From NCBI GenBank assembly GCA_031275085.1, contig JAISPG010000041.1, forward strand, positions 62,001-126,000: DNA of 64,000 nt, written 5' to 3'. Below the pieces are notes generated by a model. The model had not been told where the DNA came from. It worked only from the letters and a program-made list of their open reading frames with translations, and searched no databases. Numbering within the stretch: position 1 is the stretch's first letter; each line of letters opens with the position of its first letter. Of this stretch, positions 22,939 through 50,595 are shown one piece after another. The position numbers were made by a program, and so were the translations under genes. This DNA comes from Bacteroidales bacterium (lineage in GTDB: Bacteria > Bacteroidota > Bacteroidia > Bacteroidales > ML635J-15).

Positions 22939-24282
22939 CTAAGAATTGGGTTCTTTTTTGGGTTTGCCCTTTTTAGGTTCTTTTTCCTTTTTCTCTTGAA
23001 CCTTAAAGTTATCGAATTTTTCCATTTCGGAAGCCTTTAGTTTATCCACGATTTTAATATAAGGTTTCATAGCCTTATAATCACTATGGCCCGTCCACTT
23101 CATTATAACTTCGGCCGGAACCCCAAGCCTTAAAGCGTTCACTATAAAAGTACGCCTTCCGCAATGAGTTGTAAGAAGGGCGTATTTCGGTAATACTTCT
23201 TCGTGGCGTTGGTTTCCCATAAAATAAACGATTCTTTGGGGTGTAGTAAGCCCGGCTTCCTTTCCCATTTCTTTAAGGTTTTCGTTCATTTTTACGTTGC
23301 TTACAACCGGCAGGGCCATATCATTAGGAAGCCCTACGTTTTCGTACTTCTTTAGTATTGCCTTGCTATACTTGTTTAGTTCAATAATAAGGCTATCGAC
23401 CGTTTTTTGAGTAATAACGGTAATATAGCCTTTCTTTACGTCGCTTTTCTTTAGCTTAGCTACATCAGAATAGCGAAGACCGGTAAAGCAGCAAAAACAA
23501 AACACATCCCGGACGGCCGGAAGGGACGTTTTAGCGGGCGGAAACTTGAAAGAATATAATTCTAACAGTTCTTCCCATTCCAAGTATATAATTTCCTTAG
23601 AATTGCCGTCTACCCCCTTAAACTTAGGCTTAAAGGATTCGTGTAGCTTCCCTTCATAGTAGCCAGCGTTAAAAGCCCAACGAAGGAACCAGCGGAAGAA
23701 GGAAATATATTTAGATATGGTAGTATTGCGTAGGTCGGAGTTTTGAAGGCTTACGACAAATTCCCGTAGTTCCTTTTCGGTTAGCGTTTCTAAAGCAAGG
23801 GTTTTGCTATAATTGCGCAAGTGTTCTAATAACGAATTGAATTTAGTATAGGTTGCCTGCGTCCAATTATTTTGCCGGCCCATAGTTTCCATAAATTCCG
23901 CGTAGGCTTCATAGAATTGCTTACCGGGTTCTTGGGGTTCCGGTTCCGTTCGCCCGGCTATTTCATCGAAGGCCGCCTTTAGTTCGTTTGTTGTAGGTAC
24001 GCGCTTTTCCAATAGTTCGTAGCGGGTAAATACTTCTTCTACCAATTCTTCGCAACTTAGGATAGTTTTGTTTATTTCTCCGGCAGTTTGTTTGAAGCGA
24101 TTCTTTGACCCGGCAATAACCCGCCCTTCTTCGGCGTTCCATTTTTCCGGCTCAATACTATACCCTACCCTTATATCTACCCTATTGCCCGCATAACTAA
24201 CACGCATACGGATAGGCCTACATTCAACTAATACGCCGTTTACTTTCTTCGGGAATAGGTCAAATTTTACGGTTCGTTTCAT
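22939..24282 (-). CDS. Tyrosine recombinase / phage integrase
   Basis: About 447 residues. An N-terminal arm-binding part (R-V-G-Y-S-I-E-P-E-K-W-N-A, typical of Bacteroidota integrases) is followed by a core-binding SAM-like domain (about 120-220) and the catalytic domain. Catalytic residues seen: Arg in T-G-L-R-Y-S-D-V, the His-x-x-Arg box in L-T-T-H-C-G-R-R-T-F, the His in W-T-G-H-S-D-Y, and Tyr in M-K-P-Y-I-K-I. It integrates or excises the prophage. The frame extends upstream to a TTG, but the ATG at 24282 is preferred. It overlaps the upstream small regulator gene by 23 bp. The lysine-rich tail past the catalytic Tyr is unusually long. Confidence 0.93.
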   Translation of the reverse strand: MKRTVKFDLFPKKVNGVLVECRPIRMRVSYAGNRVDIRVGYSIEPEKWNAEEGRVIAGSKNRFKQTAGEINKTILSCEELVEEVFTRYELLEKRVPTTNELKAAFDEIAGRTEPEPQEPGKQFYEAYAEFMETMGRQNNWTQATYTKFNSLLEHLRNYSKTLALETLTEKELREFVVSLQNSDLRNTTISKYISFFRWFLRWAFNAGYYEGKLHESFKPKFKGVDGNSKEIIYLEWEELLELYSFKFPPAKTSLPAVRDVFCFCCFTGLRYSDVAKLKKSDVKKGYITVITQKTVDSLIIELNKYSKAILKKYENVGLPNDMALPVVSNVKMNENLKEMGKEAGLTTPQRIVYFMGNQRHEEVLPKYALLTTHCGRRTFIVNALRLGVPAEVIMKWTGHSDYKAMKPYIKIVDKLKASEMEKFDNFKVQEKKEKEPKKGKPKKEPNS

Positions 24283-24580
24283 TCTTAAACATTTTTCCCC
24301 GACCAAGTAACAGCCATTCGGTCGAAATACTATAATTAATACATAAGCTATGTAGGGCTTCTAATTCGATTTGTTTATAACGGGAAGGCTTTGAATTTGG
24401 ATTAGGCGTTATTCCGTAGGTTAGGCGTATTTCACGATACCGAGAAGGACTAAGGCCGTATAGCTTACAAAAGGATTCTAACGAAGATACCCGCCCAAGG
24501 CTTACAATGGCTTCCATTGCCACAAAGAAGCGGCGGTTTATTCCTTCGACTATTGGGGTTATTACCTTCGTTGTTTTCAT
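24260..24580 (-). CDS. Small phage HTH-type regulator
   Basis: A 106-residue protein. The centre (S-F-C-K-L-Y-G-L-S-P-S-R-Y-R-E-I-R) looks like a helix-turn-helix, and the end reads I-S-T-E-W-L-L-L-G-R-G-K-M-F, the closing segment found after the HTH in many Bacteroidota phage repressors. It starts at an ATG overlapping the stop of the 58-residue gene upstream (TAATG), which suggests translational coupling, and it overlaps the integrase start. It may control integration or act as an excision regulator. The role is inferred from position. Confidence 0.6.
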   Translation of the reverse strand: MKTTKVITPIVEGINRRFFVAMEAIVSLGRVSSLESFCKLYGLSPSRYREIRLTYGITPNPNSKPSRYKQIELEALHSLCINYSISTEWLLLGRGKMFKNETNRKI

Positions 24581-27226: not shown

Positions 27227-27518
27227 ACGGCTTATAGACGTTACCGTAGGGGAACTTTTAGACCTTATCGAAGAACGGGTAAATACTAAGGTAGTAGTAG
27301 ACACTACGAAAGAAAGCAAGCGATACGTTTACGGGCTTGCCGGAATTGCCGAAATATTTAACTGTTCAAAAACTACTGCCAACCGGATAAAGCAAAGCGG
27401 TAAGATAGACGGGGCTGTAAGGCAAATAGGGAACCTAATAGTAGTAGACGCGGATTTAGCAATAGCACTCGCCGGAAGGATAGAAAAGAATAAATACACT
27501 AAGAAAAAAAAGTTATGA
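27210..27518 (+). CDS. DUF3853 family protein
   Basis: A 102-residue protein starting at the ATG at 27210 (the frame extends 13 codons more, inside the previous gene). It carries the DUF3853 pattern: L-I-D-V-T-V-G-E-L-L-D-L-I-E-E-R near the start, then Y-V-Y-G-L-A-G-I-A-E-I-F-N-C-S-K-T-T-A-N-R-I-K-Q-S-G-K-I-D and I-G-N-L-I-V-V-D-A-D-L-A. The central part is an excisionase/MerR-like winged helix. Probably binds DNA. It overlaps the next gene by ATGA. Confidence 0.85.
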   Translation: MTNLNKRLIDVTVGELLDLIEERVNTKVVVDTTKESKRYVYGLAGIAEIFNCSKTTANRIKQSGKIDGAVRQIGNLIVVDADLAIALAGRIEKNKYTKKKKL

Positions 27519-29545
27519 AGAAAGATGTAACAGTAAAAGAAATGACCCTTTTAAACTTTAAGGGCATTCAGAAACGAACTATTAAGTTCGGACAAACGAC
27601 GGAAATACGCGGGGCAAACGCTACCGGTAAAAGTACAATTAACGACGCGTTTATGTGGGTTCTATTCGGAAAAGACGCGCACGGAAACGGAGATACTAAG
27701 TTTGGTATTAAAACGGTAGGGCCGGACGGAAAGGCTTACGAAAAGTTAGACCACGAAGTAACGGCTATTTTGGACGTAAACGGCGAAGAAGTTACCCTAC
27801 GCCGTTGCTATACGGAAAAGTGGGTAACAAAGCGCGGTAGTTCTTCGCCTGTACTTGAAGGACATACTACGGACTATTTCTATAACGGGGTTCCCCTGAA
27901 GGAAGGCGAATACAAAGCCAAGATTAACGCCCTTATAGAAGAACAATTATTTAAAATGATAACTAACCCGCTTCACTTCGCCGGGTTGGATTGGCCGGTA
28001 CAACGGGAAATACTATTACAGATTGCCGGCGGGGTATCATACGAAGAAATAGCCAACTCAAAAGACGAATTTAAGGCTATTCTTACGCAGCTTTCCGGGA
28101 AAGACTTAGCCGAATTTAAGGCGGAAATTTCTGCCCGGAAAAAGAAGATACAAGAAGAACTAACTAAGATTCCGACGCGTATAGACGAAATTACCCGTAA
28201 TACACCGGTTACACCGGATTACGCAGCATTGGAAGCGGAAAAAGAAAGACTTAGTAAAGCATTGGAAGCCGTAGAAACGGCTATGAATGATAAGTCGAAG
28301 GCGAACCGCGAACACTACGAAAAGGCGCAAGCTACCCAAAAGGAAATAAACGGCTACCGATCGGAACAACAAAACATACTTTTTGAAGCTAAGCAAGCGG
28401 CGCAAAAAGAAGGTTACGAAAAGAACGCCAAGGCCAACGAAGCCAAGAACCAATACGAAGCCAAGAAGCGCGAATTTGATAGTTATATAGCTTCTTCCGA
28501 CCGGGAAATAAGCGACATAAACCGCAATATTTCCACTATTGAAGCGGATATAACAACGCTTACGAATAAGGTTATAGATAAGCGCAAGGAATGGAGCCAA
28601 AAGGACGAAGAAACGTACCAAGTTTCTACTACCGGCCTTACTTGCCCGATTTATAAAACGCTTTGTTCGGATGCCAGCGTTTTACAAATGGATTCCGAAG
28701 CTAAGGGCAAGGCAAAAAAAGCATTTGAAGAAGCCAAGGAAAAAGCACTTACCGAAATTCATAACGCCGGTTGCGAACTGAACAACCAAATAGCCGAAAA
28801 GAACAAAGTTTTATCCGGGCTAAGAACGCAGCTTACCGAACGAACCGCCGAAATTTCTAACAAGAAAACGGAATATACGACCGAATTAGGACGTTTAAGC
28901 GACCTTGTTAAAAATACCCCTTTGGAAGAAGTAAACACAAATATAAAAGGGGAAGATTTGCCGACTTGGAACGAATTAGAAGCCAAAATTAAAACGCTTT
29001 CGGCTTCCATCGAAGAAGAACCCGTTACCGATAATTCAGAACTTACAGCGCAAAAAAGAAGCCTTACGGCGGAATTGGACGAAGTTAAGCGTAAACTTTC
29101 CCTTCGTTCGGTTATTGAGAGCAACGAAAAGCGTAAAGCCGAACTTCTAAGCCAAGAAAAGGACTTAGCCCAACAAAAGGCGGACTTAGAAAAACAGGAA
29201 TTTGTAATAGACGACTTTACAAAGGCGCGTATGGAAGAAGTAGAACGCCGAGTAAACGAAAAGTTCCAATTAGTACGCTTCCGTATGTATTCCCAGCAAA
29301 TTAACGGCGGAGAAAAACCGGACTGTATTCTAATAAGCAAAACTACCGGGGCGAAGTTCTTAGATACCAACAACGCCGATAAGATAAATATCGGATTGGA
29401 TATTATTAATACCCTTTGCGACTTCCACGAAGTAAGCGCGCCTATTTTCATAGATAACGCCGAAGGGGTAAACGAAGTATTCCCGGTTTCTTCCCAGCTA
29501 ATAAAGCTAATTGTAACTACCGAAAAAGAATTAACAATAGTATAA
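27515..29545 (+). CDS. SbcC/Rad50-like phage ATPase
   Basis: A 676-residue protein. Walker A (G-A-N-A-T-G-K-S-T-I) is near residue 35, with the Q-loop region L-H-F-A-G-L-D-W-P about 150. Two coiled-coil arms (about 190-340 and 395-590) surround a hook-like segment C-P-I-Y-K-T-L-C near 365; this has two cysteines but not the CPxC spacing of a Rad50 zinc hook. The C-terminal Walker B-like segment is A-P-I-F-I-D-N-A-E-G-V. Such ATPases work with phage recombinases and nucleases in DNA end processing. It is next to the Bet/RecT gene, supporting a recombination role. No nuclease partner is certain, though the MBL protein may serve. Confidence 0.85.
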   Translation: MKKDVTVKEMTLLNFKGIQKRTIKFGQTTEIRGANATGKSTINDAFMWVLFGKDAHGNGDTKFGIKTVGPDGKAYEKLDHEVTAILDVNGEEVTLRRCYTEKWVTKRGSSSPVLEGHTTDYFYNGVPLKEGEYKAKINALIEEQLFKMITNPLHFAGLDWPVQREILLQIAGGVSYEEIANSKDEFKAILTQLSGKDLAEFKAEISARKKKIQEELTKIPTRIDEITRNTPVTPDYAALEAEKERLSKALEAVETAMNDKSKANREHYEKAQATQKEINGYRSEQQNILFEAKQAAQKEGYEKNAKANEAKNQYEAKKREFDSYIASSDREISDINRNISTIEADITTLTNKVIDKRKEWSQKDEETYQVSTTGLTCPIYKTLCSDASVLQMDSEAKGKAKKAFEEAKEKALTEIHNAGCELNNQIAEKNKVLSGLRTQLTERTAEISNKKTEYTTELGRLSDLVKNTPLEEVNTNIKGEDLPTWNELEAKIKTLSASIEEEPVTDNSELTAQKRSLTAELDEVKRKLSLRSVIESNEKRKAELLSQEKDLAQQKADLEKQEFVIDDFTKARMEEVERRVNEKFQLVRFRMYSQQINGGEKPDCILISKTTGAKFLDTNNADKINIGLDIINTLCDFHEVSAPIFIDNAEGVNEVFPVSSQLIKLIVTTEKELTIV

Positions 29546-29564: not shown

Positions 29565-29972
29565 ATGAACAAAGAAGTAATTATTACAGACAGAGTAAAA
29601 ACGTTTGAAGACGCTTGTAACATTTTAGGATTAGACCCTAAACAACATCCCGTAGCGGATCTTTTGCCGGAAAAAGACCGCAGGGCTATAATAGCTTTCT
29701 ATAAGCTAACTGTGATTGTTCGCGCTCTTAATGAAGGTTGGGAGCCTAATTGGTTGGATTGGAACGAATGGAAGTATTATAATTGGTTCTACTTAGATTC
29801 TGCGGGTTTCGGCTTTGCGGCTACGAATATCGCGGCTACGTGTGCGAGTACGTCTATCGGCTCCCAGCTTTGCTTTAAAACGTCCGCGTTAGCACGTTAC
29901 GCCCGCGAAACGTTCCGGGATTTATATTTTGAGTTTCTATTTATTGACCTTCCAAAAAATTACGGAAAATGA
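29565..29972 (+). CDS. Hypervariable phage protein A (candidate DGR target)
   Basis: A 135-residue protein of a family I know only from Bacteroidota phages, with A-L-N-E-G-W-E-P-N-W then Y-Y-N-W-F, S-A-G-F-G-F and L-C-F-K-T near the C-terminus. It is a paralogue of the gene at 31889. An 83-nt block (29799-29881, about residues 79-106) is nearly identical between the two except for 13 bases, all at codon positions 1 or 2. It lies between the SbcC-like and Bet genes and overlaps Bet by 4 bp. The function is unknown; the variation pattern suggests a binding surface under selection or targeted mutagenesis. Confidence 0.7.
   Translation: MNKEVIITDRVKTFEDACNILGLDPKQHPVADLLPEKDRRAIIAFYKLTVIVRALNEGWEPNWLDWNEWKYYNWFYLDSAGFGFAATNIAATCASTSIGSQLCFKTSALARYARETFRDLYFEFLFIDLPKNYGK
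29799..29881 (+). repeat. Variable-region block 1 (paired with 32267-32349)
   Basis: This block matches 32267-32349 over 83 bases with no gaps. The first 21 and last 16 bases are identical; the 13 differences lie between, confined to codon positions 1 and 2. In 9 of the 13 one copy has A. All differences could derive from adenines in a common template. Confidence 0.7.
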
Positions 29973-30730
29973 GTAACGAAACAAAAGCAGTAGCAACGCC
30001 CGATAAAGGTAAAGTTACCTATTCGGTTGCAGGGCAAGACGTAACATTGTCTTATCAGATTGTACGGAACTTCCTTACAAAAGGGAACGGGCAAGTTTCC
30101 GACCAAGATTTAACGCAATTCATTTGTATTTGCAAGTACAACCAGCTAAACCCCTTCTTAAACGAAGCCTATTTAGTTAAGTTTGGAGATAAGCCGGCCC
30201 AAATGATAGTAAGCAAAGAGGCCTTAATGAAGCGGGCGGAAGCCTGCGAGCAATACGAAGGAATACAGGCGGGAATTATCGTAATGAGAAATAACGAAGC
30301 GGTAGAACTTGAAGGATGTTTTTACTTGCCTACCGATAAGTTAGCAGGGGGCTGGGCTAAGGTTTTCCGAAAAGATAGAAAGTTTCCGATAATAGCAAAA
30401 GTACGCTTAGAAGAATACGACAAAAAACAAAGTACTTGGAACGAAAAACAAAGTACAATGATTAGCAAGGTCGCAAAAGTACAAGCGTTACGCGAAGCGT
30501 TCCCGGCACAATTAGGGGCTATGTACACCCAAGAAGAAAGCAACGTAGTAGATACCGAATATATCGACGTTACGGACAAAGTAACGGTAGAAATAAAGGA
30601 GAACGCGAACGCAGGGGGAACGTTAAACTTTGACGACCAACCCAAGCCGGAAGACCAACAACCGGCCGGGCCTGGCCCGGAAGCAACGCAAGCAACGCCT
30701 AAGAATAACGCTAAAACACCCGGTTTTTAA
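29969..30730 (+). CDS. bet: Phage recombination protein Bet (RecT family)
   Basis: A 253-residue single-strand annealing protein. Family signature: D-L-T-Q-F-I-C-I-C-K-Y-N-Q-L-N-P-F-L-N-E-A-Y-L-V-K-F near residue 55, M-I-V-S-K-E-A-L-M-K-R-A-E near 85, A-K-V-Q-A-L-R-E-A-F-P near 175. The Pro/Glu-rich tail after residue 205 is disordered and ends N-A-K-T-P-G-F. Bet anneals complementary strands in phage recombination. It overlaps the preceding gene by ATGA and is followed two bases later by the MBL gene. Confidence 0.9.
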   Translation: MSNETKAVATPDKGKVTYSVAGQDVTLSYQIVRNFLTKGNGQVSDQDLTQFICICKYNQLNPFLNEAYLVKFGDKPAQMIVSKEALMKRAEACEQYEGIQAGIIVMRNNEAVELEGCFYLPTDKLAGGWAKVFRKDRKFPIIAKVRLEEYDKKQSTWNEKQSTMISKVAKVQALREAFPAQLGAMYTQEESNVVDTEYIDVTDKVTVEIKENANAGGTLNFDDQPKPEDQQPAGPGPEATQATPKNNAKTPGF

Positions 30731-30732
30731 TT

Positions 30733-31473
30733 ATGATTCTGAAAGTATTAGGCAGTAGTAGCCGGGGTAATTGCTACATATTGGAGAACGAAAGCGAAGC
30801 CCTTATATTGGAAGCTGGCGTTAAGTTTACGGAAGTAAAACGCGCCTTAGACTTCAATATAAAGAAGGTTGTCGGCTGCCTAATTACCCACGAACATAAA
30901 GACCACGCCGGATATATTAACGAGTTTTTAGGGGCTTGTATTCCCGTTTGGGCTTCCGAAGGAACTATTAAGAATACAACTATAAAAGGCGACCGGTTGC
31001 CGCTTTATTGCGAAGCCGGCGCGCTTTTCAAATTGGGCGGCTTCCAAATAATACCCTTCAATACTATGCACGATTGCGCGGAACCTTTGGGCTTCTTCAT
31101 TAACCACGAAGAAACGGGAAGGGTTCTATTTGCTACCGATACTTATTACTTGCCTTGCAAGTTCGCAGGCCTTAATAACGTATTGATAGAATGTAATTAC
31201 CGATTAGACATTTTGGAAGACAATATAGCCGCCGGTCGGGTTCCTTCCGTTGTTCGCAACCGTACTATAAAATCACATTTCAGCTATAAACATTGTTTGG
31301 AAGCCTTACAAGCAAACGACATTAAGGCGGTAAATAACATTGTTCTTATACACCTTTCCGACGGGAATAGCGACGCTAAAGCATTCCAAGAAGGAATAAA
31401 AGAAGCTACCGGAAAAAGGGTATTTATAGCGGAACCCGGATTAGAAATAAACTTTAATAAAACCCCTTTTTAG
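30733..31473 (+). CDS. MBL-fold metallo-hydrolase
   Basis: A 246-residue protein with the metallo-beta-lactamase motif H-E-H-K-D-H-A-G (about residues 54-61), G-S-S-S-R-G-N-C-Y near the N-terminus, F-A-T-D-T-Y-Y near 135 and H-L-S-D-G-N near 205. It matches the YycJ/PhnP-like MBL group, members of which act as exonucleases or phosphodiesterases. Found beside Bet and an SbcC-like ATPase, it may be a recombination nuclease, but this is inferred from position. Confidence 0.8.
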   Translation: MILKVLGSSSRGNCYILENESEALILEAGVKFTEVKRALDFNIKKVVGCLITHEHKDHAGYINEFLGACIPVWASEGTIKNTTIKGDRLPLYCEAGALFKLGGFQIIPFNTMHDCAEPLGFFINHEETGRVLFATDTYYLPCKFAGLNNVLIECNYRLDILEDNIAAGRVPSVVRNRTIKSHFSYKHCLEALQANDIKAVNNIVLIHLSDGNSDAKAFQEGIKEATGKRVFIAEPGLEINFNKTPF

Positions 31474-31475
31474 CC

Positions 31476-31877
31476 ATGATAAAAGGATTCGAAAACGAAA
31501 CACAGCCATTAACCGATTACGAAGCGGAGGTACTTCTTCCGCTTTTAATTCGAGGTTTACATACGAAAATAGGACATAATAGCGCGGTTACAAACAAACA
31601 TATAGTAACATCGCTAAAACATACTTATAATATTTCAGACGCAAGGGTAAGGAAAATTATAAACCATATTCGTACTAACGACCTTGTACCAGGACTTATA
31701 GCAACTTCCGAAGGATATTTTATTGCAGAAACGGAAGACGAACTTTTAGAGTACGAAGAAAGCCTAAAAGGCCGCGAAGATGCTATAAAGCAAGTACGGT
31801 TAAGTATTGCAAGACAAAGACGGATTCTTTACCAGCAAACAAGAGAGGGTAAACAAGGTAATTTATTTAACAATTAA
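31476..31877 (+). CDS. Hypothetical phage protein with winged-helix look
   Basis: A 133-residue protein. L-T-D-Y-E-A-E-V-L-L-P-L-L-I-R-G-L near the start and S-D-A-R-V-R-K-I-I-N-H-I-R-T in the middle give the look of a small winged-helix domain of the kind found next to phage replication genes. The tail is a charged helix. It follows the MBL gene by two bases. No certain family. Confidence 0.5.
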   Translation: MIKGFENETQPLTDYEAEVLLPLLIRGLHTKIGHNSAVTNKHIVTSLKHTYNISDARVRKIINHIRTNDLVPGLIATSEGYFIAETEDELLEYEESLKGREDAIKQVRLSIARQRRILYQQTREGKQGNLFNN

Positions 31878-31888
31878 ATTAAAAAAAA

Positions 31889-32419
31889 ATGAAACAAAAT
31901 TTTTTCATGAATTATGCCGACGGCCAAGGCGCGCCAACGGTTAAGTATGACAACGAAACGACTGCTACAAAAGAAGCGGAACGTTTAGCCGAAAAATTAG
32001 GCGTAGAAGTAACTACGCTAAAGGCTGTAACGAAAACAGCCCCAAAGGATATTAGAAAGCGTATAAAGACTTACCCGGACGCTTGCGAGTTCCTTAAGGT
32101 TGAACCAATTGTAGACGAAGTTCTACTAAAGTTAGGTTTTACAAAGGACGAAATAGCTTACCGTAAGTTAAAGACCATTGCTAAAGCCCTTAACGAAGGT
32201 TGGGAACCTGATTGGACTAATAGCAATGAGTATAAGTATTGGCCTTGGTTTATTTATAACGGCGCGTCTGCGGGTTTCGGCTTTGCGCATGCGAATTACT
32301 CGGCTTCGTATACGGGTACGGGTATCGGCTCCCGGCTTTGCTTTAAAACCCGTGAACTCGCCGCGTACGCCGGAAAAACGTTTGAAGACCTTTATAATGA
32401 TTTCTTTTTAATAAAATAA
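31889..32419 (+). CDS. Hypervariable phage protein B (candidate DGR target)
   Basis: A 176-residue paralogue of the 29565 gene. It adds an N-terminal extension (about 65 residues, Lys/Glu-rich), then shares I-A-K-A-L-N-E-G-W-E-P-D-W, W-P-W-F and the block S-A-G-F-G-F ... G-S-R-L-C-F-K-T followed by E-L-A-A-Y-A-G-K-T-F-E-D-L-Y. The 83-nt variable block is at 32267-32349. Outside it, the two genes differ at third positions in the normal way. The pair suggests a phage-encoded diversified protein, unusual for lying among recombination and replication genes rather than tail genes. Confidence 0.7.
   Translation: MKQNFFMNYADGQGAPTVKYDNETTATKEAERLAEKLGVEVTTLKAVTKTAPKDIRKRIKTYPDACEFLKVEPIVDEVLLKLGFTKDEIAYRKLKTIAKALNEGWEPDWTNSNEYKYWPWFIYNGASAGFGFAHANYSASYTGTGIGSRLCFKTRELAAYAGKTFEDLYNDFFLIK
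32267..32349 (+). repeat. Variable-region block 2 (paired with 29799-29881)
   Basis: In-frame match to 29799-29881; 70 of 83 bases are identical, all third codon positions are conserved and ten codons differ, each changing the amino acid. See the linked block for the comparison. Confidence 0.7.
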
Positions 32420-32422
32420 GCC

Positions 32423-33265
32423 ATGGATAATGTACAAACAAGAAAGGACGAAGTAAAATTTACCACTTCCAACATTAAAGAAATGTTTGGAAAATTCTTA
32501 TCAAAAAGAGTTTTAAATACTTGGAAAGAAGACTTTGTAGATGAGAGTTCTGGCGAAATAGTTACGATAGAACGTAACGAGGTTCTTTTTGAGAAAGGAA
32601 AGTACATCGATAACGACCTATTGACACAAATAAACTTTAGCCTTCAAAGTGGCGAGATACAGGAAGTAGAAGTAAGTAACCAACGAAGGTTAGCAACCCA
32701 TAATAAAAGAAATAGTTTATGGCCTTTCAAAATAAACGCGGTTATAGGCGGTAAAAATTACGCCTTCATACTACAGGCGCAAAGCGTAACAAAGGCTATT
32801 GAGGTTGCAACCGACTATATAGAACTTAATTATACTTCGGGATTTGATATTAGCGGGGTTAAAGCCTTAAAATCATTCATTATACTAAATGATAGGTTTA
32901 AGAAGCGTATTATAGATTCAGAAAGCAACGAAGAAGTAGCGGAAGTTTGGAAAAATGAAGAAAAAGAAAGCAACGATGGAGAAGAAAAGCGCGACGACAC
33001 AAAATATTACAAAATTGAAGCGAAGGTAGAAATTAGCAGCGATGAAGACGAAGAAACGGAAGGCTACCCCTATGATTTTCTTGTTAAAACAAAAGACGTA
33101 GATACAGCAAAGGTTGTAATTACATCATGGATTAACAACAAATTCAAGGAGAAAGGAGAAGACCGAATAATAGAACTATCTATACTTTCAGCTACCCCGT
33201 TCCCTTGTAATTCAATCATAGAAAAAGAATTTTGTTTAGCATATTTCGACAGTGAAGAAAAATAA
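32423..33265 (+). CDS. Hypothetical phage protein, 280 residues
   Basis: A soluble, charged protein. Two halves look related: each has a segment with F-K-I-N-A-V-I / Y-K-I-E-A-K-V-E-I, then a strand-helix unit with A-I-E-V-A-T-D-Y-I or T-A-K-V-V-I-T-S-W-I, then I-S-G-V-K-A-L or I-E-L-S-I-L-S-A-T. Thus it may be built from an internal duplication separated by an acidic linker (about 175-200). No family is recognised. It precedes the replication genes. Confidence 0.55.
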   Translation: MDNVQTRKDEVKFTTSNIKEMFGKFLSKRVLNTWKEDFVDESSGEIVTIERNEVLFEKGKYIDNDLLTQINFSLQSGEIQEVEVSNQRRLATHNKRNSLWPFKINAVIGGKNYAFILQAQSVTKAIEVATDYIELNYTSGFDISGVKALKSFIILNDRFKKRIIDSESNEEVAEVWKNEEKESNDGEEKRDDTKYYKIEAKVEISSDEDEETEGYPYDFLVKTKDVDTAKVVITSWINNKFKEKGEDRIIELSILSATPFPCNSIIEKEFCLAYFDSEEK

Positions 33266-43865: not shown

Positions 43866-44188
43866 AAGTAATAATAAATAATATCATTCCATTTAAGGGT
43901 TTCGCGGCTATAAACCTATTCGGGGTTTTGTTCGTCCGGGAAGGGATAACTATAACCGACCGGCTAATACAGCACGAAACAATACATACCCGGCAAATGA
44001 AGGAACTACTATACCTTTTCTTCTACATATCCTACGTTTTGGAATGGCTTGTAAAACTTCTTTTCTACGGGAAGAAATCCTACCGAAATATCAGTTTTGA
44101 ACGCGAAGCCTACGCAAATGAAAAAAAGATAGGATACTTAGATAATAGGCCGTTCTATGCATTCTTAAAATACATTTTTCAAGTATGA
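43862..44188 (+). CDS. Small HExxH membrane protein within the terminase pair
   Basis: A 108-residue protein. It has H-E-T-I-H-T-R-Q (HExxH, about residues 40-44), the zinc-binding motif of metallopeptidases, followed by a hydrophobic segment (L-L-Y-L-F-F-Y-I-S-Y-V-L-E-W) and F-E-R-E-A-Y-A-N, whose Glu could be the third ligand. It overlaps TerS and TerL by ATGA-type joins. Similar short proteins are common in Bacteroidota, without known substrate. A role in head assembly or cell entry is possible but unproved. Confidence 0.6.
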   Translation: MKVIINNIIPFKGFAAINLFGVLFVREGITITDRLIQHETIHTRQMKELLYLFFYISYVLEWLVKLLFYGKKSYRNISFEREAYANEKKIGYLDNRPFYAFLKYIFQV

Positions 44189-45642
44189 CACGGAACGAAA
44201 GAATAGAGTATTTAGCAGCTTTGCAAGAAAGGTTAGTAAGGAAGGGCCGTACTGACCTTTTGCCGTTTACGCTTGCTACTATGCCTACTTTCGTTCCGGC
44301 GGGTTTTCATAAGCGTTATTATTCGGTTCTTACCGACTTTGCCGAAAAACTGATTAAAAAGTTAATGGTATTTATGCCGCCACAACATGGGAAAAGCGAA
44401 GGTTCTACCCGCCGTTTACCGGGTTATATACTTGGGCGGTATCCTGATACCAAGTTAGCCGTAGTTAGTTATTCTTCCCCTAAAGCGCGCAAATTTAACC
44501 GAGAAATACAAAGGGTAATAGATAGCCCGGAATATGCCGAAATATTCCCGGAAACGCGTCTAAATTCTAAAAACATTTCTACCGTTGCGGGTAGTTGGCT
44601 AAGGAACGCCGACGAATGCGAGATAGTAGGACATAGGGGCGGTTTCAAAACCGTAGGGGTTGGCGGGCCTCTTACAGGGGAGCCGGTAGATTGCCTTATT
44701 ATGGACGACATTTATAAGGACGCTAAAACGGCCTGGTCGCCCGTAGTTCGTTCGGCTATTGAAGATTGGTACGACACAGTAGCCGAAACCCGTCTACACA
44801 ATGATAGCCAACAATTAATAGTATTTACCCGTTGGCACGAATTGGATTTAGCCGGCCGCCTGTTGGAACAACAAGGTATTTATTCCGAAGACAACCCCGA
44901 CGGTTGGGTAGTCGTAATTTACCAAGCCATTAAGAAAGGGAAACCGACAGAATACGACCCGCGCGAAGAAGGCGACCCGCTATGGCCGGAAAGACACAAC
45001 TTGCAGAAGTTAGAAAGCGTAAGGAAGCGGAACCCTCACGTATTTGAAAGCCTTTACCAGCAAGAACCGAAGCCGTTAGAAGGGCTTATGTACGAAAACC
45101 CATTTAAGGAATACGAAATACTACCGGCTACCAAAACGAAGAAGGTAAAGAACTATACCGATACGGCGGACACAGGCGAAGACTTCCTTTGTTCTATTAC
45201 CTACTTGGAAACCGAAGTAGGGAACTTCGTACTTGACGTTCTTTATACCCAAAAGGCTATGGAGTACACCGAGCCGAAGACCGCCGAAATACTTACTAAA
45301 CACGCCGTAGAATTAGCCTTAGTAGAAAGCAACAACGGGGGGCGCGGATTCGCCCGGAACGTAGAAACCCAATGCCGGTTAATGGGTAACGCCAAGACCC
45401 GTATAAAGTGGTTTCATCAAAAGGATAATAAGCAAGTTCGGATATTCAGCCGAAGCGGGGAAGTTCAAAACCTAACCTACTTTCCGAGGGGTTGGGATAG
45501 AATGTGGCCGGACTTCTACCAAACTATTACGCGCTACATGAAAGTTGGCGGTAATAAGCACGACGACGGCCCGGACGCGCTTACCGGTACTATTGAATTC
45601 AGACCGAACGCCAAGAAAGGACGCGCCGCCGATTACTTCTAA
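44185..45642 (+). CDS. Terminase large subunit
   Basis: A 485-residue packaging motor. The Walker A region is M-P-P-Q-H-G-K-S-E (about residues 67-75), and Walker B with its Glu-like acid is D-C-L-I-M-D-D-I-Y-K-D-A. The coupling motif T-R-W-H-E-L-D-L-A-G is near 218. The C-terminal nuclease domain is RNase-H-like (D-T-A-D-T-G-E-D near 325, V-E-S-N-N-G-G-R-G near 385, D-D-G-P-D-A-L near 460). It pumps DNA into the prohead and cuts the concatemer. Confidence 0.93.
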   Translation: MTRNERIEYLAALQERLVRKGRTDLLPFTLATMPTFVPAGFHKRYYSVLTDFAEKLIKKLMVFMPPQHGKSEGSTRRLPGYILGRYPDTKLAVVSYSSPKARKFNREIQRVIDSPEYAEIFPETRLNSKNISTVAGSWLRNADECEIVGHRGGFKTVGVGGPLTGEPVDCLIMDDIYKDAKTAWSPVVRSAIEDWYDTVAETRLHNDSQQLIVFTRWHELDLAGRLLEQQGIYSEDNPDGWVVVIYQAIKKGKPTEYDPREEGDPLWPERHNLQKLESVRKRNPHVFESLYQQEPKPLEGLMYENPFKEYEILPATKTKKVKNYTDTADTGEDFLCSITYLETEVGNFVLDVLYTQKAMEYTEPKTAEILTKHAVELALVESNNGGRGFARNVETQCRLMGNAKTRIKWFHQKDNKQVRIFSRSGEVQNLTYFPRGWDRMWPDFYQTITRYMKVGGNKHDDGPDALTGTIEFRPNAKKGRAADYF

Positions 45643-49623: not shown

Positions 49624-50595
49624 TTATTTTAGCACTTTTCGTTCTAAGTCTTTTATGTAGGCTTCTTGGTATAAGGTAGCAAGTGCGTCTTTAACTAAGT
49701 TTAGCGAACTTGTAGCAACGTTCATAATAACGTTTTCCTTCCTTATTCCTGCAAGCGTTTTATACCGTTCAAGTTGTTGTATAACAATACAAGCTCCGCC
49801 TATTATTTCGGCAAGTTCCGGGCAAAGTTTCATAGGGATAGTTTCGGGAATTGCTTCTGTTTTCGGTATTATTTCTGTTTGTTTGGCTTCTATTACGTTA
49901 GGTTCCGAACGCATTACCGTAAGTACCTCACTTTCTATCCAGCCTTGAAGTATAGTTATTTCCTTGCCTACTTTACGGGAGAAAATACGCGAAAGATTAG
50001 GTTCGTCTATATAAGAAAGCACTTGAATGCCGCCTCCGGTTGGAGTTTCGATATAACGAAAACCGTTAAGGTTTAGTTTGTTCTTTAACGACGTGCCATT
50101 CTTAACGCCTATTGCACGGCAAATATCAATATAGCAAAACATTACTTCGTTTTCTACCGTAGTAGCACGTAGCCAACCGTAAGGGCTTTTAAATTCTTTA
50201 ATTGGATAAACATCTGCAGCTTGGCGTAACTTAACACTTCGCACAGAATAACCGCCCGTTTTGCGGATTTGCGGTAAGACTTCTTCTACTACCCAATCTT
50301 GGAATGATTCCGCTTCTTTCTTCCTGCTTTGAAAGATACAACGGTAAAGGTTCGGTTCGTCAATGAAAAGCATTTTTTGACGACCTCCGGAAGTAGGGAC
50401 TTCAATACTACTTAACCCCTTTTTTTGTAATCGTTTTTTTGTTTCTGTAACGTTGCTTAGCCCCAATACAGTACATACATCATTAAGACAAAATAAGGCT
50501 TCGTTATTTTTTGTTGATTGTACCCGCATTTGACCGAAAGCGGGATTTTGGAAGATTTGAACGCCCGTAGCGTTCGGATTTAAATTTGTTTCCAT
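49624..50595 (-). CDS. Antirepressor with two Bro-N domains
   Basis: A 323-residue protein with tandem Bro-N domains. The first (about 10-115) has F-G-Q-M-R-V, L-F-C-L-N-D-V-C-T-V-L-G-L and V-L-P-Q-I-R-K-T-G-G-Y; the second (about 135-235) has W-L-R-A-T-T-V-E-N, M-F-C-Y-I-D-I-C-R-A-I-G-V and W-I-E-S-E-V-L. A short helical C-terminus follows. It is likely to bind a phage repressor and release lysogeny, or to act against other prophages. It is leftward, against the surrounding late genes, and is preceded by a structured leader. Confidence 0.85.
   Translation of the reverse strand: METNLNPNATGVQIFQNPAFGQMRVQSTKNNEALFCLNDVCTVLGLSNVTETKKRLQKKGLSSIEVPTSGGRQKMLFIDEPNLYRCIFQSRKKEAESFQDWVVEEVLPQIRKTGGYSVRSVKLRQAADVYPIKEFKSPYGWLRATTVENEVMFCYIDICRAIGVKNGTSLKNKLNLNGFRYIETPTGGGIQVLSYIDEPNLSRIFSRKVGKEITILQGWIESEVLTVMRSEPNVIEAKQTEIIPKTEAIPETIPMKLCPELAEIIGGACIVIQQLERYKTLAGIRKENVIMNVATSSLNLVKDALATLYQEAYIKDLERKVLK

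Follow-up and report, generated by a model that had tools for sequence, protein, structure and literature searches.

What has rewritten a stretch of two small phage genes that lie among recombination and replication genes? The question is raised by a 64,000-nt stretch of a Bacteroidales contig (C33:62001-126000; assembly of 3.08 Mb in 78 contigs, 89% complete), hereafter called the window. Two genes on its forward strand, early variable protein 1 (VP1, 135 amino acids, 29565..29972) and early variable protein 2 (VP2, 176 amino acids, 31889..32419), carry versions of one variable repeat. We conclude, with a probability of roughly 90%, that VP1 and VP2 are targets of a diversity-generating retroelement (DGR) in the recombination/replication module of a prophage, and that the DGR cassette would once have stood behind a tail target gene, VP3, and has since been destroyed.

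The variable repeats

The VP1 repeat (29799-29881) and the VP2 repeat (32267-32349), both on the forward strand, aligned over 83 nt without gaps and with 13 mismatches. The mismatches fell on codon positions 1, 2 and 3 in the ratio 8/5/0 and changed 10 of 27 residues, and at 9 of the 13 sites one copy had A. Third positions differed in none of the 27 codons of the block and in 56 of the 92 aligned codons of the flanks (Fisher p = 2e-9). This contrast ruled out chance similarity or ordinary paralogy of the blocks. Re-computation thus returned the figures of the preliminary description of this DNA, which had also reported ordinary third-position divergence outside the block and proposed that the genes were remote DGR targets. 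No Rfam family reached its gathering score in the window, and the reading of the blocks as an RNA element was dropped without such a match.

A search of the whole assembly with the block gave exactly three matches, all of them coding: VP1, VP2 and a third copy at C33:132621-132697 (window-equivalent 70621-70697), 6.6 kb beyond the window end. The third copy was at the 3ʹ end of the tail gene VP3 (444 amino acids, phrog_5302, L037:11371-12705; locus L037 is C33:120001-140000). The three copies varied at 19 of 81 sites, with 9, 9 and 1 at the three codon positions, and the lone third-position site was in the last codon counted, at the block edge. This third copy in a tail gene, and relatives of similar gene order that carry both a reverse transcriptase (RT) and a template, bore out the proposal of remote targets.

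The sibling phage G061 (48.9 kb record) was 85.6% identical in nucleotides over 33 kb of aligned pieces, and most of its proteins were 71-95% identical. It has an intact run of tail gene, accessory gene, template, RT and endolysin. Its first early VP, the ortholog of VP1 in the same slot, lies between the ATPase gene and a partly matching recT, and its second follows a phrog_2113 gene, as VP2 does. The mismatches of these two genes to the template of G061 itself were at template adenines in 8/8 and 13/13 cases. When the window repeats were compared with the G061 template 15/17 mismatches of VP1 (over 74 nt), 16/18 of VP2 and 17/19 of VP3 were at template adenines.

The templates of four other relatives (G005, G007, G018 and G019) were then compared with the variable sites of the three window copies. 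Each covered 16 of the 19 sites with adenines (13 of 15 in the core), with p of about 1e-7, or 6e-5 to 1.3e-4 when only codon positions 1 and 2 were counted; the four templates are alike, and therefore these are not four independent tests. The preliminary description would have taken a lack of enrichment for template adenines as evidence against a DGR, and the opposite was found. Near the 3ʹ end of the repeat, the same four templates read AAT and the target repeats seen read CTT; this difference, in which two adenines are changed each time, is perhaps a fixed mark separating template from target.

Outside the repeat VP1 and VP2 are under purifying selection. Compared with G061, the body of VP1 had a dN/dS of 0.16, and its variable repeat had a pN of 0.28, above a pS of 0.10. 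The corresponding values of VP2 were a dN/dS of 0.17, and a pN of 0.21 above a pS of 0.10.

Remains of the cassette

One prophage appears to hold all three repeats, because it is syntenic with G061; it would extend from a gene that we take to encode an integrase-like protein (22939..24306, reverse strand) to about window-equivalent 74.1 kb. In this prophage, VP3 is still followed by a presumed accessory gene (L037:12758-13084, phrog_19665), 83-87% identical to its homologs in L075-L077, with the last part replaced. No Pfam match was found for the accessory gene, and its position suggests an Avd-like action.

The alignment to G061 ended inside the accessory gene (L037:13032 / G061:45709) and restarted ~56 nt short of the end of the RT gene (L037:14183 / G061:46974). 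No template, and nothing of the RT beyond these final ~56 nt, is left at the cassette place, and the template position in G061 maps to the resulting scar (L037:13033-14182). The scar is filled with about 1.15 kb of unrelated sequence containing an open reading frame of 89 amino acids (L037:13248-13517) and a NUMOD4/HNH endonuclease gene (L037:13631-14188); the endolysin gene is at window-equivalent 72976-73500. By eye, the 89-amino-acid frame was like the C-terminal part of an antirepressor-like protein encoded at window 49624-50595 on the reverse strand, and the filling may derive from this antirepressor-like gene of the prophage itself.

An RT elsewhere in the genome was considered and set aside. 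The RVT_1 profile (PF00078) matched nothing in the genome of the window (0/1), with control matches in 3 of 14 genomes; the RT protein of a relative gave no match in the assembly, in a search without a positive control, and no E-value below 1.3 in 118 kb of the window's own contig. A template repeat of its own was not found in the 3.08 Mb assembly either, where the three coding copies were the only matches. The genome-wide search for RT and template proposed in the preliminary description was thus carried out, and its statement that the window has neither held for the RT in the 89% complete assembly as well; its assumption that the cassette was merely out of view did not, since the cassette is broken within the prophage.

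The cassette has been destroyed in this prophage, which makes the VP1, VP2 and VP3 repeats orphaned DGR targets. In the course that we propose, a template RNA would have been copied by an adenine-error-prone RT, and the mutated cDNA would have taken the place of the 3ʹ repeat in the tail gene and in the two genes for small non-tail proteins. Later the end of the accessory gene, the template and nearly the whole RT would have been lost, with HNH-bearing sequence in the gap, and the three repeats would be a frozen record of past diversification. DGR origin, a shared type of template, a place in a DNA-metabolism module and a broken cassette are the parts of this course that the sequences themselves show.

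The family across phages

The repeat was not found in any of 30 other genomes of the family, 25 of which belong to the same genus, and the pattern of the window's repeat had no match in IMG/VR. When IMG/VR was scanned for VP2, matches were obtained at 30 loci of 28 records, several of which are fragments. RVT_1 was above the Pfam cut-off in 23 of the 28 records. A second repeat, differing mostly at its own adenines, was near the family gene at 17 of the 30 loci. Clean pairs of template and gene were found in L003 (16/16), L012 (12/12, 13/13, 10/10), L020 (14/14, 11/11) and L028 (7/7, 9/9).

Of the 23 RT-bearing records, 19 had the VP match no more than 1.4 kb from the RT domain and four had it 36 to 40 kb away along the record; if these four phages circularise, the shorter route would be roughly 10 kb by arithmetic from the coordinates. 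On the fragment G066, VP and RT are 9.8 kb apart. The four with a distant VP are G005, G007, G018 and G019, which share most of the gene order of the window: tail target, accessory gene, template and RT precede the endolysin, and each phage has one VP gene, located behind the SbcC-like ATPase. A RecT-like gene comes after VP in three of them, and G019 had no recT match.

In these phages both the early and the tail repeats differed from the template at its adenines: 11/11 and 9/9 in G005, 10/10 and 8/9 in G007, 8/8 and 9/9 in G018, and 14/15 and 12/12 in G019. The same was found in G064 (early 14/14, tail 15/15), G066 (14/14, 8/8), Bacteroides phage Versailles (15/16, 12/13) and phage PV4-TP1 (VP-family repeat 17/17, tail repeat 16/17). 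The counts for the non-tail repeats of these phages and of G061 were taken within BLAST local alignments of 68-112 nt. In total, the ten cognate non-tail repeats, which come from nine phages, had 124 of 126 mismatches at template adenines, and the eight cognate tail repeats had 89 of 92; the first sum omits the second early copy of G064, and both omit BT-TP2 (host B. thetaiotaomicron), whose VP spans the record ends and had 10/10. The annotated RT of PV4-TP1 gave two separate RVT_1 hits, both below the Pfam cut-off. The RT match of G007 (G007:2396-3007) has one internal TAG, which may be recent decay or an amber reading, and both of its targets still look freshly mutated.

A target away from the RT, outside the structural genes and sharing the template of the tail was therefore seen in G005, G007, G018, G019, G064, G066, Versailles and PV4-TP1. 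The window is of the same kind by synteny and by the repeats shared with VP3; G061 is so only in part, because its tail repeat is not cognate, which leaves the early pair as the only matching targets found in G061. Relatives in named genomes were found at 12 loci with Bacteroidota titles, eight of them with an RT match in the locus; for some of the genera we assume membership of this phylum. On a contig of a Tannerellaceae metagenome-assembled genome (L084:559-1107), a VP had a VP2-like front and a VP1-like end, and therefore the two early proteins seem to have exchanged ends by recombination at the variable repeat.

Nature and possible role of VP1 and VP2

VP1 and VP2 are among recombination and replication genes, as the preliminary description had stated, and PHROGs matches named their neighbours, all on the forward strand. 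The left neighbour of VP1 is an SbcC-like AAA ATPase gene (27515..29545, phrog_77), which is kept in relatives by synteny. Between VP1 and VP2 are genes for a RecT-like single-stranded DNA annealing protein (29969..30730, phrog_2760), a metal-dependent hydrolase (30733..31473, phrog_392) and a phrog_2113 protein (31476..31877), the last being the left neighbour of VP2. The right neighbour of VP2 encodes a phrog_35807 protein (32423..33265), without match in G061.

Similar surroundings were found elsewhere. Genes that are SbcC-like, RecT-like, NinB-annotated, SSB-like or for replication were near VP in several phages. The annotated run in Versailles reads SbcC-like protein, recombinational DNA repair protein, metal-dependent hydrolase, NinB, hypothetical protein, VP, two hypothetical proteins and replisome organizer. 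PV4-TP1 has methyltransferases and a tRNA ligase around its VP; in L024 a DNA transposition protein and an ATPase are beside VP, and portal and terminase lie on the opposite strand; and L089 has a primase and an integrase nearby, with five of eight scanned neighbours without match. These neighbourhoods suggest a link to DNA metabolism or counter-defence. The SbcC-like ATPase had 15 weak PADLOC matches to defence-system ATPases, which were taken as general ATPase likeness.

The N-terminal parts of VP1 and VP2 matched phrog_11581. Their C-terminal parts were labelled 'tail' by PHROGs (E 5e-6 for VP2 and 0.024 for VP1), and the Versailles copy is annotated as a tail protein. It could be, then, that the early VPs are virion proteins, such as an alternative adhesin or a decoration, made late or packaged despite the place of their genes. 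The variable stretch common to VP1, VP2 and the tail protein VP3, and the feeding of tail and non-tail targets by one template, agree with this. We consider it unlikely, however. The genes are placed among those for SbcC-like and RecT-like proteins, a hydrolase and replication, or in L024 beside a transposition protein and an ATPase; a profile comparison with VP3 (probability 37%) aligned no more than 15 columns, which all fall within the variable stretch; the repeat by itself can yield the 'tail' label; and the proteins have no strongly hydrophobic segment (maximum 19-residue hydropathy of 0.66 to 1.05 in four members). As to a C-type lectin fold, raised in the preliminary description, the variable proteins had no Pfam match and the family profile had no match in PDB; one weak PDB match of VP3 (E 0.0055) was judged spurious.

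We tentatively picture VP1 and VP2, at somewhat below even odds, as binding proteins made early, which hydropathy would place in the cytoplasm, and whose variable stretch would bind a host factor that itself changes, most probably as part of counter-defence. A wider proposal, which we hold a little more loosely still, is that the family is a hypervariable intracellular binder for counter-defence or host take-over, residing in the recombination, replication or transposition modules of diverse phages. One template would then tune both adsorption and intracellular conflict, and the mutator would be shed once a good combination was fixed, as in the window prophage and in phages of the L011 and L016 type.

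Cassette-less relatives and the state of the repeats

Four relatives, L009, L011, L016 and L029, had no RT in their records, two of which are fragments under 40 kb. They lack the accessory-template-RT segment of L020 at its place; L016 retains a piece of the accessory gene and L011 does not. Their repeats differed from the L020 template almost only at its adenines, and for this reason the absence of the cassette is read as loss. Between L016 and L020, the VP pair differed at 23 of 148 repeat sites, all 23 at template adenines, and at 0 of 1383 flank sites. Between L011 and L020, one of 148 repeat sites and two of 1383 flank sites differed.

Such phages bear on whether the window repeats could still be diversified in trans, by the RT and template of an occasionally co-resident phage, with the cassette lost as dispensable. 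The targets of all four are open and mutually different, and the comparison of L016 with L020 shows repeats changed within unchanged flanks. The near identity of the L011 repeats to those of L020 is, in contrast, as expected if mutation stopped at the loss, the cassette loss of L016 could postdate its diversification, and an RT was not found in the genome of the window; continued diversification in trans thus seems quite improbable for this prophage. An origin without any retroelement, through gene conversion among the three repeats and diversifying selection on a binding loop, could draw on the presence of three homologous blocks in the genome, on the RecT-like gene of the phage and on the recombination that seems to have occurred in L084, but it is very hard to believe, because selection would not put changes at the template adenines of relatives (16/19), the template and RT of G061 with its 8/8 and 13/13 strongly disfavour it, and an accessory gene and the remnant of an RT end are present in the window prophage itself.

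DGR targets that have outlived their cassette remain our preferred explanation of VP1 and VP2, and several points weigh against it. The adenine origin of the window repeats rests on relatives because the prophage's own template is missing. Two mismatches in each window repeat were not at adenines of the G061 template, and the templates of the four relatives left three of the 19 variable sites unexplained. In G061 the tail repeat was not cognate with the phage's own template (62.5%; tail gene oriented 44060-45379). The picture across phages is also less simple than the clean pairs suggest: five of the 28 IMG/VR records, some of them fragments, were without RT; the pairs in L008 (14/17), L014 (16/19), L023 (18/21) and L028 (18/21) were less clean; the same search gave no clear template in the RT-bearing L013 and L015; and the second early copy of G064 was not cognate (8/15 in a match of 50 nt, which contains a stop codon). 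Since the assembly is 89% complete and in 78 contigs, the absence of RT is not proof, and an RT hidden in the missing tenth is a minor worry because the scar sits at the cassette's own place. As for the proposed role, VP1 and VP2 matched no PADLOC family, and their early timing is read from gene position.

Comparison with known systems

The DGR of Bordetella phage BPP-1 reportedly serves a single tail target, Mtd, with the cassette adjoining. The likeness to VP1 and VP2 is that a phage gene has its 3ʹ repeat rewritten specifically at adenines.

A nearer counterpart is Quimbyvirus. The available part of Benler et al. 2021 (PMC8008677) describes a non-structural second DGR target in this phage, with a nuclease, methyltransferases and a tRNA ligase in its neighbourhood, and suggests phage-host conflict. 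The idea of the preliminary description that a diversified intracellular or early phage protein had not been described before was therefore only partly true. As far as that account goes, Quimbyvirus is like the family of the window in having one DGR that serves both a gene of the tail module and a remote, presumably non-structural gene. The VP gene of PV4-TP1 is in a neighbourhood of this kind, and its two RVT_1 hits below the cut-off recall the frame-split RT reported for Quimbyvirus. The Quimbyvirus target probably belongs to the same family as VP1 and VP2. The window differs from the Quimbyvirus so described in its RecT/SbcC-like module, its two early targets and its broken cassette.

The accessible text of a Nature 2025 paper (PMC12629997) reports that in four species of induced gut prophages a second repeat lies a long way from the RT and close to counter-defence genes, and does not say to which gene family this second target belongs; DGR-positive genomes there were required to have RT and repeats, unlike the orphaned targets of the window. 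The Bacuni phages of Bacteroides uniformis (PMC8143477, in excerpt) have two targets, one far from the RT, with substitutions at template adenines, and differ in that adhesins of a fimbrial-tip-like kind are reported for the two of them. The tentaclin paper, judged from the portion at hand, deals mainly with cassettes that have two targets, and Roux et al. 2021 state, in the section consulted, that their survey misses targets at a distance from the RT. That cassettes can be broken is already known, because crAss-like phages have complete cassettes and fragments, according to the available pages of PMC12386605. Distant non-structural DGR targets as a kind are likewise already known from these partial sources. 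The open-licence literature searched, a Faecalibacterium paper among it, so far as its text was available, contained no family-wide recombination-module pattern, no double early target and no orphaned early targets with a mapped scar.

What is less known is the place in recombination/replication modules, the two copies per phage and the repeated absence of the cassette. The orphaned state means that a gene may be a genuine DGR target even where no RT is found, and surveys built around the RT would overlook such genes. As some carriers have recorded hosts (Versailles, PV4-TP1 and BT-TP2), what a phage gains from hypermutating a probably non-virion protein is a directly testable question. Phage DGRs are mostly discussed as diversifiers of tails, and the VP family is rewritten from the template of the tail yet stands in a DNA-metabolism module.

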